Shown here one piece after another: positions 24,753 to 32,783 of a stretch of DNA of 64,000 bases. A program made the position numbers and the translations under genes. The DNA comes from an uncultured Rhodospirillales bacterium (GTDB taxonomy: Bacteria; Pseudomonadota; Alphaproteobacteria; Azospirillales; Azospirillaceae): the NCBI GenBank assembly GCA_903920145.1, contig CAIXKV010000065.1:1-64000 (forward strand), in the 5' to 3' direction. Positions within the stretch are counted from its first letter, which is position 1. Every line of letters starts with the position of its first letter. The notes under the pieces are model-generated. The model was not told the DNA's origin. It did not search any database and saw only the letters and a list, made by a program, of their open reading frames with translations.

Positions 24753-26357
24753 TCAAGCACAGAGTGGCGACGGCGCGGTTCGTTGACGTTTGACCAGCAG
24801 CTTGTTCAGAGCATGGACGTAAGCCCGGCAGGACGCCACCAGGGTATCGCTGTCGGCACCGCGCCCAACCACGCCGCGATCCTCGTCCTCCAGACGCACC
24901 GTGACCTCGGCCTGGGCATCGGTCCCCGCTGTCACGGCGTGAACCTGATACAGCTCAAGCCCGGCCTCATGAGGATACAGCGCCTTGATTGCATTGAAAA
25001 TTGCATCCACCGGACCGTTACCACCAGCCGAGGTTTCCCGCCTCTCGCCGTCGACCACCAGCACCAGATCCGCCTGCTGAGGCCGCTTGGAGCCGGCCAG
25101 CACCTCCAGCGAAATGAACTGAATCCGGTCTTCGGAATGACCAATCTGGTCGTCCACCAACGCCACCAGATCTTCGTCGAAAATCTCTTTCTTCTTGTCG
25201 GCCAATTCCTTGAATCGCCTGAATGTTTCATCGATTCCGGCGTCATCCAGGACATACCCCAAATCCTTCAGCCGAGTCCGGAAGGCGTTGCGGCCAGAAT
25301 GCTTGCCAAGCACCAACCCGCCCTTGTCGGCGGCGGCGCGGACCAGCCCTACCGATTCTGGGGTCATGATCTCGTAGGTTCCGGCATGCTTCAGCATGCC
25401 ATCCTGATGAATGCCCGATTCGTGGGCAAACGCATTGGCGCCGACGATGGCCTTGTTGGGCTGCACCACAAAGCCCGTAATGACCGACACCAACCGCGAC
25501 GCTTTGGTGATGGTCTCGGTATGAATACCCGTGGTGTAGGGCAATCGATCATGGCGGGTCCGCAGCGCCATCACCAGCTCCTCCAGAGCGGCATTGCCTG
25601 CCCGTTCGCCCAAGCCATTGATGGTGCATTCGACCTGACGGGCGCCGTGGCTGACCCCAGCCAGAGAATTCGCCACCGCTAAACCCAAGTCATTGTGACA
25701 ATGGACCGATAACACCGCTCGGTCGATATTGGGCACTCGGTTGCGCAGCATGGAAAACAGCGCGCCGTATTCTTCAGGCACGCCATATCCGACCGTATCG
25801 GGAATGTTGATGGTGGTTGCGCCGGCGGCAATCGCCGCTTCTACACAGCGGCACAGGAAATCATGCTCGGTACGCGAGCCATCTTCGGCGCTCCACTCCA
25901 CATCTTCGACCAGAGATCGGGCGTAACGCACGCTTTCAGTGATGGCCTCCAAGACCTGCTCGGGGGGCATCTGAAGCTTATACTTCATATGCAGCGGGCT
26001 GGTTGAAATGAAGGTATGAATACGCTTACGAACGGCACCGGCCAGGGCTTCGGCGCAACGATCGATATCCCGACGTTGGGCGCGGGCTAGTCCTGCCACC
26101 GTGGTCCGTTGTAGCAACCGACTGATGGCGGACACGGCTTCGAAGTCGCCATTCGAAGCGATGGGAAAGCCGGCTTCGATCACATCGACGCCCAGCTCCT
26201 CAAGGACTCGAGCGACTCGGAGTTTCTCCTCGAGATTCATCGAAGCCCCTGGCGATTGCTCACCGTCGCGGAGCGTGGTGTCAAAGATGACGATACGCTG
26301 ATCGGCGGGCTCGCCAACGGCAACCGCCGGGGCGCAGGTCGCGGAAACGATGGTCAT
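24753..26357 (-). CDS. leuA: 2-isopropylmalate synthase
   Basis: First committed enzyme of leucine synthesis, condensing acetyl-CoA with 2-oxoisovalerate; 534 residues. The HMGL-like TIM barrel starts with [18 protein letters not shown] (from 25), carries the metal-binding [15 protein letters not shown] and the [13 protein letters not shown] segment, and is followed by the C-terminal LeuA dimer (leucine-feedback) domain. The ATG at 26357 was chosen because AAGGA precedes it by eight bases; the frame runs 52 codons further upstream without conserved sequence. I looked for a leucine-rich leader peptide upstream and did not find one. It is the only leucine gene in the window. Confidence 0.95.
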
Positions 26358-26587
26358 AACGGAAATCCTTACAGGGGTTGCTCTCGGTACCTGGGAGTGG
26401 CCCTTTCTCGCAAGAAAATTTGGGGCTTGGCTGCAACGCGCTCGAGTCGCCCCCCCAAAAAACCACCGGATCCCAGACACCATCGAGCCTTGATGGTTCT
26501 TTACGTGACCCACCCTGTCATAAACTGCTAATCTCCGCGCAGGCCGGAGGCGCCAAGCGTGTAGGTGGATACGAGGAAAGCAGAGTC

Positions 26588-27097
26588 ATGAGCGCATCGG
26601 CAAGCCTCAAGCCTCAGAAGGTTGGAAAAGCCGAGCTGAAGGCCAATATCACCGACCTCAAGGCCGAGTTAAAAGCCGAAAAGATCGAGCTGAAGGCCGA
26701 CTTCGCCCATGTCAAAACGGAACTTGAAGCCAGTATTGCTGACATAAAAGCCGAGCTAAAGACTGATATTATTGAAACTAAAGCTGAATTAATAACCAAT
26801 ATCACCACCCTTGGAACCAAATTAAAAGCCGACGTCAACGAAATTAGAACTGAAATAAAAATCGATGCCGATAACCTTAAAATTAAAACAATGACTAACA
26901 TTGACGAAGTTATGGCTGATTTAAAGACCAACATCACCCACCTTAAAACCGAATTAAAGGCCGAGATCGCCGAAACTAGAGCTGATATTTTATCTTCTAA
27001 AGTCTATTTATTAAAAGTTATTATCTTGGCGACAGCCGTTAATGCTACCGTTGTGCTTGGCGGCTTATTTGGCCTTATCAAGTTCCTGGGACACTGA
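26588..27097 (+). CDS. Membrane-anchored hendecad-repeat coiled-coil protein
   Basis: A 169-residue protein built almost wholly from consecutive 11-residue units: AELKANITDLK, AELKAEKIELK, ADFAHVKTELE, a 7-residue ASIADIK interruption, then AELKTDIIETK, AELITNITTLG, TKLKADVNEIR, TEIKIDADNLK, IKTMTNIDEVM, ADLKTNITHLK and TELKAEIAETR. One C-terminal membrane helix follows (VIILATAVNATVVLGGLFGLI) with a short GH tail. An 11-residue period predicts a slightly right-handed coiled coil, with the rod in the cytoplasm if the protein is tail-anchored. The DNA is much richer in A/T than its neighbours, especially 26740-27020. AGGAAAG lies seven bases before the ATG. The function is unknown. Confidence 0.75.
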   Translation: MSASASLKPQKVGKAELKANITDLKAELKAEKIELKADFAHVKTELEASIADIKAELKTDIIETKAELITNITTLGTKLKADVNEIRTEIKIDADNLKIKTMTNIDEVMADLKTNITHLKTELKAEIAETRADILSSKVYLLKVIILATAVNATVVLGGLFGLIKFLGH

Positions 27098-27132
27098 GCC
27101 GAGGTGAAATCGGCGCCAACAGACCAAAACTG

Positions 27133-27158
27133 AAACCGAAAAATGCGATCGGGTTTTT
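27133..27158 (+). terminator. Possible intrinsic terminator after the coiled-coil gene
   Basis: AAACCGA, a nine-base loop, then TCGGGTTTTT forms a short stem followed by five T residues 36 bases after the coiled-coil gene stop and before ribE. The stem is short and slightly mismatched, so the call is tentative. Confidence 0.38.
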
Positions 27159-27201
27159 GGGCGACTTGGCCCAACCCGCTCCAAGCTGCTAAGGTGCCAG
27201 C

Positions 27202-27789
27202 ATGTTTACTGGAATCATCACACATATCGGCGAGGTTTCCGCCATCGAGCGTGGACCCGACATCCGATTCATCATCGCCAGCGGCCTTGACACCGCTGAG
27301 GTGCCGCTGGGCGCGTCGATTGCCTGTAATGGCGTCTGCCTGACCGTGGTCGACCGCGACTTCGGCTGGTTTGCCGTCGAAGCTTCCAAGGAGACCCTTG
27401 ATCGGACCACGCTGTGCGCGTGGACCGAGGGAACGCCGGTCAACTTGGAACGATCCTTGCGGCTTGGCGATGAATTGGGCGGCCACTTGGTGTTCGGCCA
27501 TGTGGACGGGGTCGCCGAAGTGATCGAAATCACGCCCGTAGGCGGCAGCCTGCGGTTTGACTTCGAAGCTCCGCCCGAATTCGCCCGCTTTATCGCGGTC
27601 AAAGGCAGTGTGGCCCTTGACGGCGTGTCCCTGACGGTCAATGAAGTGGCTGGCCGTCGTTTTGCCATCAACATCATCCCCCATACTCAGCAATGCACCA
27701 CATTCGGCTCCATGACTCCGGGACGGGCGATCAATCTCGAAGTGGACATGCTGGCGCGCTATGTCGCGCGCCTGACCGAGGCAGCATGA
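27202..27789 (+). CDS. ribE: Riboflavin synthase alpha chain
   Basis: Converts two 6,7-dimethyl-8-ribityllumazine molecules to riboflavin plus the pyrimidinedione; 195 residues. It shows the internal duplication of two lumazine-binding barrels. The first starts MFTGIITHIGEV and contains IACNGVCLTVV; the second contains VALDGVSLTVNEV and INIIPHTQQCTTFG. It opens a ribE-ribBA-ribH-nusB operon, and its stop overlaps ribBA by ATGA. The deaminase/reductase gene ribD, often just upstream in alphaproteobacteria, is not here. No FMN riboswitch signature is visible in the 100 bases before it. Confidence 0.95.
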   Translation: MFTGIITHIGEVSAIERGPDIRFIIASGLDTAEVPLGASIACNGVCLTVVDRDFGWFAVEASKETLDRTTLCAWTEGTPVNLERSLRLGDELGGHLVFGHVDGVAEVIEITPVGGSLRFDFEAPPEFARFIAVKGSVALDGVSLTVNEVAGRRFAINIIPHTQQCTTFGSMTPGRAINLEVDMLARYVARLTEAA

Positions 27790-28958
27790 CGCCGTATCTC
27801 GCCGCCGCTCTGTCTTCAACCGAGGAAATCATCGAAGAGGCCCGACAGGGCCGTATGGTGATTTTGGTTGATGACGAGGACCGGGAAAACGAAGGCGATC
27901 TGTTCATCCCCGGTGACGCTGCATCCGCAGAAGCGGTCAATTTCATGGTCCGCTTTGGGCGCGGCCTCGTGTGCCTGGCCTTGCCCCGAGAGCGCGTGGA
28001 CCAGTTGCACCTGCCGCTGATGACTCGGCACAACCAAACCCGCCACCAAACCGCCTTTACCACCTCCATTGAGGCTCGAGTCGGTGTCTCCACCGGCATT
28101 TCCGCTGCCGACCGCGCCCGAACCATCCAGGTTGCCATTGATCCCACCGCCGGTGCCCATGATCTGGTCAGTCCCGGCCATGTGTTCCCCCTGGTGGCAC
28201 GAGAGGGGGGGGTGTTGGTGCGAGCCGGTCATACCGAAGCGGCGGTCGACATCGCCCGCATGGCCGGACGGTCCCCTGCTGGCGTGATCTGCGAAATTCT
28301 TAACGAAGACGGCACCATGGCGCGGTTGCCGGATCTGGTTCCCTTTGCCCAATATCACGGGCTGAAAATCGGCACCATTGCCGACTTGATCAGTTATCGC
28401 CGACGCACCGAAACCCTGATTAAACGGACCCTCGACACCGAGATCGTCAGTCGCTACGGCGGGCGCTTTCGGTTGGTCACCTACCTCAACACCGTCTCGG
28501 GAATTGAGCATGCGGCGCTGATCCGTGGCGATGTGGGCGACGGGGCTCCGGTTCTGGTGCGGATGCACGCCCACGACCCGCTCGACGACGTCATCGCCGA
28601 ACAAAGCGCCGGACGCGACGCCAATCTTCAAGCCGCCATGGCCATGATCGCCGAAGCCAACCGAGGTGTGGTGGTGATGTTGTGCGATCCGCCCGAAAAA
28701 CCCCTGGCCGAACGGCTGCAAGCACGGCTGTCGGGAACCGCACCGCCGGGGGCCGAATTGCGCGATTATGGCGTCGGGGCTCAAATACTCCTGGACCTGG
28801 GGGTTCGGCATATGATCCTGCTGTCCAATCATCGCCGGACCATCATCGGACTCGACGGCTATGGCCTGACGGTGGTCGGTCATCGCCCGATCGCGGTCAA
28901 TGAGGCATTGTCCGGAGCCCATAAAACCACTATCGGGGAAACCGCCGTCGATGGCTGA
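27786..28958 (+). CDS. ribBA: 3,4-dihydroxy-2-butanone-4-phosphate synthase with degenerate GTP cyclohydrolase II-like domain
   Basis: 390-residue fusion. The N-terminal half (about 10-210) is DHBP synthase, with VDDEDRENEGDLFIP, the MVRFGRGLVCLAL strand, TRHNQTRHQTAFTTSIEA, and GHTEAAVDIARMAG. It turns ribulose 5-phosphate into the four-carbon lumazine precursor. The C-terminal half resembles RibA, but the Zn-binding cysteine cluster normally seen as C-x10-C-x-C after the GDV segment is missing; only one cysteine (VVVMLCDPP) is present. The second domain is therefore probably not a working GTP cyclohydrolase, as known for several alphaproteobacterial RibBA proteins. It overlaps ribE (ATGA) and ribH (8 bases). 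Confidence 0.9.
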   Translation: MTPYLAAALSSTEEIIEEARQGRMVILVDDEDRENEGDLFIPGDAASAEAVNFMVRFGRGLVCLALPRERVDQLHLPLMTRHNQTRHQTAFTTSIEARVGVSTGISAADRARTIQVAIDPTAGAHDLVSPGHVFPLVAREGGVLVRAGHTEAAVDIARMAGRSPAGVICEILNEDGTMARLPDLVPFAQYHGLKIGTIADLISYRRRTETLIKRTLDTEIVSRYGGRFRLVTYLNTVSGIEHAALIRGDVGDGAPVLVRMHAHDPLDDVIAEQSAGRDANLQAAMAMIAEANRGVVVMLCDPPEKPLAERLQARLSGTAPPGAELRDYGVGAQILLDLGVRHMILLSNHRRTIIGLDGYGLTVVGHRPIAVNEALSGAHKTTIGETAVDG

Positions 28959-29415
28959 CACACCCACGCTGCTGATCGTCGAAGCCCGCTTCTACGAAGA
29001 TATCGCCGACGAACTGGTTCGTGGCGCGGTGGCCGAAATCAACCAGGCCGGCGCCACCTACGAGCGCCTGTCGGTGCCCGGCGCCTTCGAAATTCCGGCG
29101 GCGATTCGCTATGCCGTGACCGCGATGGATCATTATTCCGGTCGTCGTCGGTTTGACGGATATGTCGCCCTTGGCTGCGTAATCCGGGGTGAAACAACCC
29201 ACTATGATTACGTCTGTGCCGAAAGCGCGCGGGGCCTTCAGGATTTGGCCTTAACTCATACCTTGGCCATCGGCTACGGCATTCTCACCGTTGAAAACCG
29301 AGAGCAGGCTTGGGCACGGGCCTCGGTCAAGCACAAGAACAAGGGCGGCGGTGCGGCCCGCGCGTGCTTGGACATGATCGAATTGAAGCGCCACTTCCGG
29401 CTTTATCCCCGATAA
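28951..29415 (+). CDS. ribH: 6,7-dimethyl-8-ribityllumazine synthase
   Basis: Penultimate riboflavin enzyme, 154 residues, normally an icosahedral or pentameric assembly. Family landmarks in order: LLIVEARFYEDIADELVRGA, VPGAFEIPAAI, YVALGCVIRGETTHYDYVC and the IGYGILTVENREQAWAR strand. The catalytic histidine of the GETTHYDYV segment is present. The start at 28951 lies inside the end of ribBA (8-base overlap), which indicates coupled translation; an in-frame extension to 28900 is not needed. Confidence 0.95.
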   Translation: MADTPTLLIVEARFYEDIADELVRGAVAEINQAGATYERLSVPGAFEIPAAIRYAVTAMDHYSGRRRFDGYVALGCVIRGETTHYDYVCAESARGLQDLALTHTLAIGYGILTVENREQAWARASVKHKNKGGGAARACLDMIELKRHFRLYPR

Positions 29416-29425
29416 TCGGACCCCC

Positions 29426-29965
29426 ATGGCTCCCCCCAGTAAGACAGCCGGTCGTAACCGGCGTGGCCGTGGTTCAGCCAAAGCGCGGCGCGGCGCGGCA
29501 CGGCTGGCTGCGGTTCAGGTGCTGTACCAGATCGAGCTTCTCGGCGCAGAACCGGAGGCCGCGCTGGCCGAATTCCTTCAACATCGGCTTGGTCACGAGG
29601 TCGACGGCGTCTCCTATGTCGCCGCCGATCCACCATTGCTCTCGGCCATCGTTCGCGGCGTCAGCGCCCGGCGAGCCGACATCGACGGTATTCTTTCGGC
29701 GGCCCTTGACGCACGAATGCCGCTGGATCGAATTGAGTTGCTTTTGCGCGCCATCCTGCGGGCCGGGGCTTTTGAATTGCTCGCCCATGGCGACATTCAC
29801 CCGCGCATTATCCTGAGCGAGTATGTTGAAATCGCTCACGCCTTCTATCAGGGGCGTGAACCGGGAGTGATCAACGGTGTCCTGGATCACGTCGCCCACC
29901 GATTGCGGGCCGAGGAACTCAGCCGACCGGAACCCCGTGGAGAGGAAGCCGAGGGTGATCACTAG
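29426..29965 (+). CDS. nusB: Transcription antitermination factor NusB
   Basis: All-helical RNA-binding protein of 179 residues that joins NusE on boxA RNA to prevent premature termination in rRNA operons. Typical elements are ARLAAVQVLYQIEL after a basic N-terminus, the RIELLLRAILRAGAFELL helix, and the terminal PRIILSEYVEIAHAF-GVINGVLDHVAHRLR block. It is co-directional with ribH, 10 bases away, as in many proteobacteria. The usual follower thiL is replaced by a structured repeat and an aldolase gene. Confidence 0.95.
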   Translation: MAPPSKTAGRNRRGRGSAKARRGAARLAAVQVLYQIELLGAEPEAALAEFLQHRLGHEVDGVSYVAADPPLLSAIVRGVSARRADIDGILSAALDARMPLDRIELLLRAILRAGAFELLAHGDIHPRIILSEYVEIAHAFYQGREPGVINGVLDHVAHRLRAEELSRPEPRGEEAEGDH

Positions 29966-29987
29966 GCTTTGCCCCCCGGCTCCCAAG

Positions 29988-30147
29988 ACCAATGGCCTTG
30001 GACGTTGACACGTCTGCGGCGCCCTCAGACGCCGGGCGGGCGCATCCGCGCCCTTGGCTTCGCGCCATGGGGGGCGCGGCGGCGGGGGGCGCGGCGGCGG
30101 TCGCCGCCGGATACCAACGGCACGGATCATTGTCTAGGGCCGTTGGT
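29988..30147. repeat. Structured palindromic intergenic element, copy 2 (inverted relative to copy 1)
   Basis: A 160 bp element bounded by ACCAATGGCC (29988) and GGCCGTTGGT (to 30147). Its reverse complement matches 15806-15952 nearly perfectly over both outer blocks, including the ACCAACGGC/GCCGTTGGT hairpin and the GGGCGCggatGCGCCC hairpin. The central block is different and longer, made of repeated GGCGGCG-type units. A long open frame runs through it into the aldolase gene, but this is a GC-rich artefact. It sits directly after nusB. Confidence 0.85.
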
Positions 30148-30189
30148 CTTAGGCCGTGCCGGCTCACCAAAGACAAAGGGTTCCTCTTG

Positions 30190-30969
30190 ATGCGCGATAA
30201 TCTCCTGAAACAGCGGTTGGCGGCAGGTGGGCGGGCGTTAGGCTGTTGGCTGGACATGGTCTCGCCGCTGGCCGCCGAGATCGTGGCGTTGGCCGGTTAT
30301 GACTGTGTGATGATCGATCACGAACATGGTCCGGGGAGCCTGATGGACGCCGTCGGGCAGATTCATGCCATCTCGGGAACCCCGACCACGCCGCTGATGC
30401 GTGTGCCCTGGAACGATTCTGTGATGATCAAGCGGGCCTTGGATATCGGCGTCGAAGGCCTGATGATTCCGGCGGTCAGTTCGGCGGAAGAGGCGCGGGC
30501 GGCGGTGGCGGCGTGCCGGTATCCGCCGGCTGGCGGGCGCGGCGCGGCTTACGGGGCGATTCGGGCATCCCATTATGGGCTTGATCGCGAGGACTACCGC
30601 AACCGGGTCAACGATCAACTGCTGCTGATCTGTCAAATCGAAACGCTCGAGGGCGTCGAGGCGATTCCCGATATTGCTCGAGTTCCCGGAGTCGATGTCC
30701 TGTTCATCGGCCCTTATGACCTGTCCGGCAGTGTTGGCAAGCTGGGCGGCTATGACGATCCCGAAGTGCGGTGGGTGATTGATCGGGCCGAGCAGGCCAT
30801 TCTCGAGAGTGGCGTTTGCTACGGCGGAATCCCGTCGCCGGTTCGCACCATGGCCCAGTTGCTCGATGTCGGCTGCCGGCTGGTGATTGCGGGCAGTGAT
30901 GTGGGCTTTGTTCGCAATGGGGCCTTGCAAGAGGTTCAGACGTTTCGGGCGCTGACCGGGGAACGGTAA
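30190..30969 (+). CDS. HpcH/HpaI-family class II aldolase
   Basis: 259-residue TIM-barrel protein of the HpcH/HpaI (2,4-dihydroxyhept-2-ene-1,7-dioate aldolase / macrophomate synthase-like) family. It should cleave or form 2-oxo-4-hydroxy acids with a divalent metal and pyruvate enolate. Visible motifs are MIDHEHGPGS (catalytic His near 46), VPWND, MIPAVSSAEEARAAV, CQIETLEGVEAI with the metal-binding Glu, FIGPYDLSGS and the terminal GSDVGFVRNG. The ATG at 30190 lies just past the structured repeat; upstream in-frame starts are inside the repeat and rejected. The physiological substrate is unknown. Confidence 0.88.
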   Translation: MRDNLLKQRLAAGGRALGCWLDMVSPLAAEIVALAGYDCVMIDHEHGPGSLMDAVGQIHAISGTPTTPLMRVPWNDSVMIKRALDIGVEGLMIPAVSSAEEARAAVAACRYPPAGGRGAAYGAIRASHYGLDREDYRNRVNDQLLLICQIETLEGVEAIPDIARVPGVDVLFIGPYDLSGSVGKLGGYDDPEVRWVIDRAEQAILESGVCYGGIPSPVRTMAQLLDVGCRLVIAGSDVGFVRNGALQEVQTFRALTGER

Positions 30970-31015
30970 AGGCCGGGCTTCCAGAAAACCAGGACAGGGC
31001 GGGAGCGTAGAGCCA

Positions 31016-32698: not shown

Positions 32699-32783
<85 letters not shown>

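Follow-up and report, generated by a model that had tools for sequence, protein, structure and literature searches.

A CCDC90-like (DUF1640) stalk-and-anchor gene between leuA and ribE of an uncultured Rhodospirillales bacterium that has probably lost most of its head

The stretch of DNA analysed here, referred to below as the window, comprises 64,000 nucleotides of one contig from an uncultured Rhodospirillales bacterium. On its forward strand, at 26588..27097, the ORF list and a profile search place a frame for a head-less CCDC90-like (DUF1640) stalk-anchor protein, and both these coordinates and the length of 169 residues agree with the earlier note on this DNA. Reading by eye places an AGGAA at 26574-26578, ahead of the ATG. 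The divergent upstream neighbor is leuA (2-isopropylmalate synthase, 24753..26357, minus strand), for which the ATG at 26357 was picked by eye, the mechanical ORF extending to 26513. Downstream lies ribE (riboflavin synthase, 27202..27789, plus strand); both neighbors were named with NCBIfam. Within the gene, all on the plus strand, the first 13 codons (26588..26626) are a remnant of the family head and are followed by the junction (26626..26627), where the neck and the remainder of the head have dropped out without a shift of frame, and then by the stalk (residues 14-134, 26627..26989). The C-terminal anchor, delimited by hydropathy and by alignment with the counterpart in a sister species, covers residues 136-169 (26993..27094). 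Its best 19-residue membrane segment, residues 139-157 (27002-27058), has a mean Kyte-Doolittle value of 2.13, in agreement with the C-terminal membrane helix proposed earlier. Between 20000 and 34000, only a tRNA at 32699-32780 reached its gathering score, with no known structured RNA near the gene, and promoter and terminator scans stayed at chance level. On a larger scale, the cumulative GC skew reaches its lowest point near 30 kb (in the stretch 26000-31000), near a switch in gene direction from minus to plus; this minimum could reflect a replication-related switch or gene orientation only.

The stalk consists of eleven hendecads, as the earlier note had it, and these are contiguous, without the 7-residue break that it described. 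Of the 11 units, 10 have I, L, M, F or V at hendecad position 4, 10 at position 11 (hydrophobic in 20 of 22 cases combined) and 7 at position 7; together these three positions form the core. Every unit has D, E or K at position 10. The hydrophobic periodicity peaks at 3.66 residues per turn, with a power of 4.1 at 11/3 versus 0.3 at 7/2 (none of 2000 shuffles as strong), and the self-similarity at lag 11 was matched by none of 5000 shuffles. The phase is consequently hendecad rather than heptad, as had been proposed, though the profile search does name a known family. According to a passage of a study of such proteins (PMC4786415), hendecads are slightly right-handed. An AlphaFold single-sequence model shows a loose N terminus followed by one helix over residues 14-168, with a mean pLDDT of 87.7, a value which for one long helix in a single-chain prediction carries little information on assembly.

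The best relative of the protein among 59 genomes (51% identity, E 4e-27) is encoded on contig C55 of the sister species G001, between divergent leuA and ribE as in the window. This contig is identical, over the 1500 bases compared, to CAIYNU010000055.1 (L078), from an uncultured Rhodospirillales metagenome-assembled genome. The G001 protein has 209 residues, with a stalk of 10 hendecads and 4 heptads, and is modeled from its single sequence as a helix at 3-11, a turn and a helix at 16-207. The two proteins align without gaps over the first 13 and the last 34 residues. Other paralogues in the window genome match the G001 protein better than the window copy does (C118 with 64% identity over 9-170, C238 with 74% over 2-109); consequently, the orthology of the two slot genes rests on the slot and on the two ends.

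In the earlier note no family was recognized; the protein proves to be a diverged member of the Pfam CCDC90-like family (PF07798, DUF1640), with a full-length counterpart in the G001 slot. PF07798 matches it with an E-value of 1.9e-7 and 31.6 bits over profile positions 45-171 of 175, which is 1.9 bits short of the whole-protein cut-off of 33.5, whereas the G001 protein passes this cut-off with 46.2 bits. In a genome scan with the same profile, the best stretch at the window locus scored 28.5 bits. The window genome holds seven loci above the cut-off, the window locus below it and one fragment at a contig end, and three to ten CCDC90-like genes occur in each of four of the five genomes of the genus. 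Also in the window genome, contigs C215 and C84 both end (L009 and L022) inside a CCDC90-like gene whose AAVKT/AAVKA repeats are near-perfect; these two ends probably join within the repeat. At an E-value of 1e-4, PF07798 finds matches in five of 34 genomes, four of them in the genus (the window genome included), and in none of 14 controls. At an E-value of 1, it finds matches in 12 of the 14 control genomes, none above the cut-off. The profile thus picks up coiled coils loosely, and weak matches mean little. The window protein itself has matches at 1e-5 in six of the 59 genomes, its own included, and an NCBIfam search with it came close to no cut-off. Searches against plasmids and phages returned weak matches only, all below 60% identity. 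Two plasmid-borne proteins, annotated as coiled-coil domain-containing or DUF1640, match window residues 38-155. The G001 protein weakly matches 16 phage records (below 60% identity), some annotated as DUF1640, tail or head proteins, among them Hamiltonella phage APSE-1 (NC_000935.1, 32372-32767) and Bacillus phages.

The lowest Pfam E-value belongs marginally to another profile, PF01442 (Apolipoprotein; E 1.7e-7, likewise 31.6 bits), and the best PDB sequence match, in a list of apolipoproteins, keratins and one enzyme, is apolipoprotein A-IV (5.9e-5). These matches would fit an amphipathic helix of 11-residue repeats lying on a membrane or lipid surface, in the manner of an apolipoprotein or perilipin, rather than a coiled coil. 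Helices on lipid surfaces carry basic residues on both flanks of the hydrophobic face. In the window stalk, the hydrophobic, basic and acidic stripes are centered at -81, -10 and 164 degrees (none of 5000 shuffles for each), so that basic residues flank the hydrophobic stripe on one side and acidic residues on the other, and the stalk contains no proline. This one-sided arrangement, which the G001 slot protein shares, fits parallel helices with salt bridges and not a lipid-surface helix. Moreover, the PF01442 score is only a third of the cut-off of 90 bits, and the counterpart in G001, itself above the CCDC90-like cut-off, has as its best PDB match 6h9l ('Uncharacterized protein', E 0.0014), which is taken here to be a prokaryotic homologue of the CCDC90-like family. 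A lipid-surface helix is therefore improbable.

Of the features of the CCDC90-like family, the window protein possesses the coiled-coil stalk, with its eleven hendecads and period of 3.66, and the C-terminal membrane anchor. The N-terminal helical head is represented by 13 residues only. These residues, MSASASLKPQKVG, are nearly the same as the MSASAVLKLQKVG of the G001 protein, and 33 of 40 bases are identical in the underlying DNA. In G001 they are followed by 26 residues, FTIDQVEALADFMDTQAASKTDLMEV, comprising the rest of the head and AASKTD, and then by the repeats, while the window protein passes from residue 13 directly into KAEL. According to a passage of PMC4786415, the stalk of DUF1640 proteins opens with a beta-layer motif, [aliphatic]-A-T-K-[polar]-[DE]. 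AASKTD is a relaxed match to this neck motif; the window protein contains neither a strict nor a relaxed one. Across four genomes of the genus, 27 family members were counted, and all except the window protein carry an N-terminal head (26 of 27). These head calls were made by a simple pattern for 24 proteins (24 of 28 listed) and by eye for C210 and C231 of G002. The count covers neither members outside the genus (G009, G013, G015) nor the weak matches on C6, C195 and C92 of the window genome. Also left out are C84b of that genome (a contig end at which the N terminus is not visible), its C243 (a coiled-coil protein with neither a CCDC90-type head nor such an anchor) and C182 and C263 of G004, which are matched by the G001 protein and not by PF07798. 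Given this distribution, the missing head is most simply explained as a derived in-frame deletion of about 26 codons; the actual deletion may exceed 26 residues, because the repeats leave the alignment ambiguous. The protein thus departs from the family in score, head and neck, yet it is a CCDC90-like member by descent. That the head is missing through an assembly error is quite improbable: the genome is fragmented into 269 contigs and the family is rich in repeats, but the DNA repeats of the window copy are diverged and the reading frame continues intact through the junction.

The slot between leuA and ribE differs across the genus. In G003 it holds a scrap of about 50 nucleotides, which blastn aligns collinearly with the anchor of G001 (E 2e-6, 40 of 50 positions identical); the same search did not report it against the window copy. 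Another G003 contig (C120) carries a headed paralogue whose anchor is of this kind. G002 and G004 have no ORF of the family within 1.4-1.5 kb upstream of ribE. The slot copy is consequently restricted to a single sub-clade, with at least one loss. In G004, the position before ribE is occupied by an unrelated ORF of 159 residues with a GC-poor middle (L037, on C40). The 5' end of leuA in G003 (L035 / L079) carries a unit of about 33 nucleotides three times in tandem, which is single in the window. The earlier note described the slot as one often taken by ribD. This holds among relatives, with a RibD motif within 1.5 kb upstream at no fewer than 14 of 28 ribE loci, a lower bound as the motif misses at least one fragment (in L049), but not within the genus (none of five). 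A role for the window gene as a replacement of ribD was rejected, since an intact ribD lies on contig C244 of the window genome (L061), beside the serine hydroxymethyltransferase and nrdR genes and apart from ribE.

The A/T-richness noted earlier is indeed striking: the GC content of the gene, 0.416, is the minimum of the window, and of 6349 sliding windows of 510 bp, the 13 with a GC content this low or lower all overlap the gene. A contrast with surroundings of about 0.6 might suggest an AT-rich foreign gene of recent acquisition. This is highly improbable, since the sister species has the same slot, start and anchor and the intergenic DNA flanking the gene is 57% GC. A headed paralogue in the window genome (L020, C247:17047-17412), with a full head and an anchor resembling the window protein's, is equally GC-poor (0.42); the G001 slot gene has a GC content of 0.59. 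The earlier suggestion that repeat number varies by slippage or recombination stands insofar as the stalk differs between the two species (121 residues in the window versus 138 in G001). For the window copy, slippage is the weak part of the suggestion. Tandem Repeats Finder found no 33-nt array in it, even at a score of 30. A separate repeat search gave only 17-18-nt families with 72-83% identity to their reference copy, and slippage would not be easy in DNA repeats so diverged. The G001 gene has 54-nt and 33-nt arrays, with 93% and 86% matches.

The loss of the head raises the question of whether the gene is still maintained. The deletion may have inactivated the window copy, which would then be decaying toward the state seen in G003, where only the anchor scrap is left; the lack of such an ORF in G002 and G004 points the same way. 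At the two ends of the window copy, differences from G001 run to 30 AT-for-GC versus 11 GC-for-AT, and the copy diverges faster than its neighbors. Over the 47 terminal codons that align unambiguously, dS is about 2.0, which is nearly saturated, versus 0.60 for ribE and 0.90 for leuA; this excess makes replacement by a diverged allele possible. The drift toward AT is nevertheless partly general (37 versus 18 in ribE), and low GC also marks the headed C247 paralogue. Against decay, the frame of 169 codons is intact, with its hydrophobic core positions kept. In the same 47 codons, dN/dS is about 0.14 (pS 0.70, pN 0.23), with an excess of silent changes (Fisher p 1e-6); for scale, dN between the two species is 0.034 for ribE and 0.042 for leuA. 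Neutral drift was simulated by evolving the 138-codon G001 stalk to 40% GC under three mutation biases, with 400 runs each, the G001 stalk being a stand-in for the true ancestor that is 17 codons longer and possibly homogenized with other paralogues. The simulated stalks acquired a mean of 5.4, 6.1 and 6.9 stop codons under the three biases; one of 1200 runs was free of stops, three kept the core as well as observed, and none did both. Because of the low dN/dS and the 5-7 stops expected under neutral drift, the gene looks functional. It evolves much faster than its neighbors and is yet constrained, although most of this constraint may date from before the loss of the head. Decay is accordingly a possible but doubtful explanation.

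Sequence alone establishes the hendecad repeats, the hydrophobic C-terminal segment, what is left of the head, the existence of a headed counterpart between leuA and ribE in G001, and a signature of coding constraint. The favored explanation, held to be reasonably probable, is that the protein is a CCDC90-like member by descent from which an in-frame deletion of about 26 codons removed the neck and most of the head, so that the stalk and the anchor survive. Its C-terminal segment would insert into the inner membrane, leaving the stalk in the cytoplasm. Hendecad positions 4, 7 and 11 would supply the stripe through which parallel stalks could then associate, with the basic and acidic stripes on opposite flanks forming salt bridges between helices, and the product would be a rod about 18 nm long and almost straight (121 residues at 0.15 nm each). 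Without a partner-binding head, such a rod might serve as a spacer or a tether, and hetero-oligomers with the seven headed paralogues of the same genome would be the likeliest way for it to do so. Yeast Put6 and Put7 are described as matrix-facing and hetero-oligomeric in a passage of PMC7519068. A more specific proposal, which is unlikely, is that the head-less subunit regulates its headed paralogues, co-assembly through the shared stalk diluting or spacing the heads, as a dominant-negative or length-setting partner. The portions of the open-licence literature surveyed gave no function for bacterial relatives of mitochondrial MCUR1/CCDC90B. A family member in this genus that is head-less and seemingly under selection provides a natural experiment on the role of the head and on possible co-assembly of paralogues.

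Among known systems, the closest is the CCDC90-like or DUF1640 family (PF07798), which includes human MCUR1, CCDC90B, yeast Put6/Put7 and prokaryotic homologues. The window protein resembles it in the long stalk followed by a C-terminal membrane anchor, in the profile match over positions 45-171 and in having headed relatives within the genus, one of them in the same slot. It differs in lacking the neck motif and all but 13 residues of the head, in having a stalk of hendecads only and in a score just below the Pfam cut-off. The Bdr proteins of Borrelia are membrane-anchored, and a tblastn search picked up one of them (E 6e-4, 37% identity across 41% of the query), but this similarity is weak and repeat-driven, and Bdr proteins are plasmid- and prophage-borne. 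The repeat number of bdr varies between orthologues, according to a passage of PMC3303823, and a table row in a Borrelia paper (PMC6856195) names DUF1640. The repeats of apolipoproteins A1/A4/E (PF01442) share the amphipathic 11-residue unit, whereas the window protein is set apart by its one-sided charge layout, its membrane anchor and a score that reaches a third of the PF01442 cut-off.
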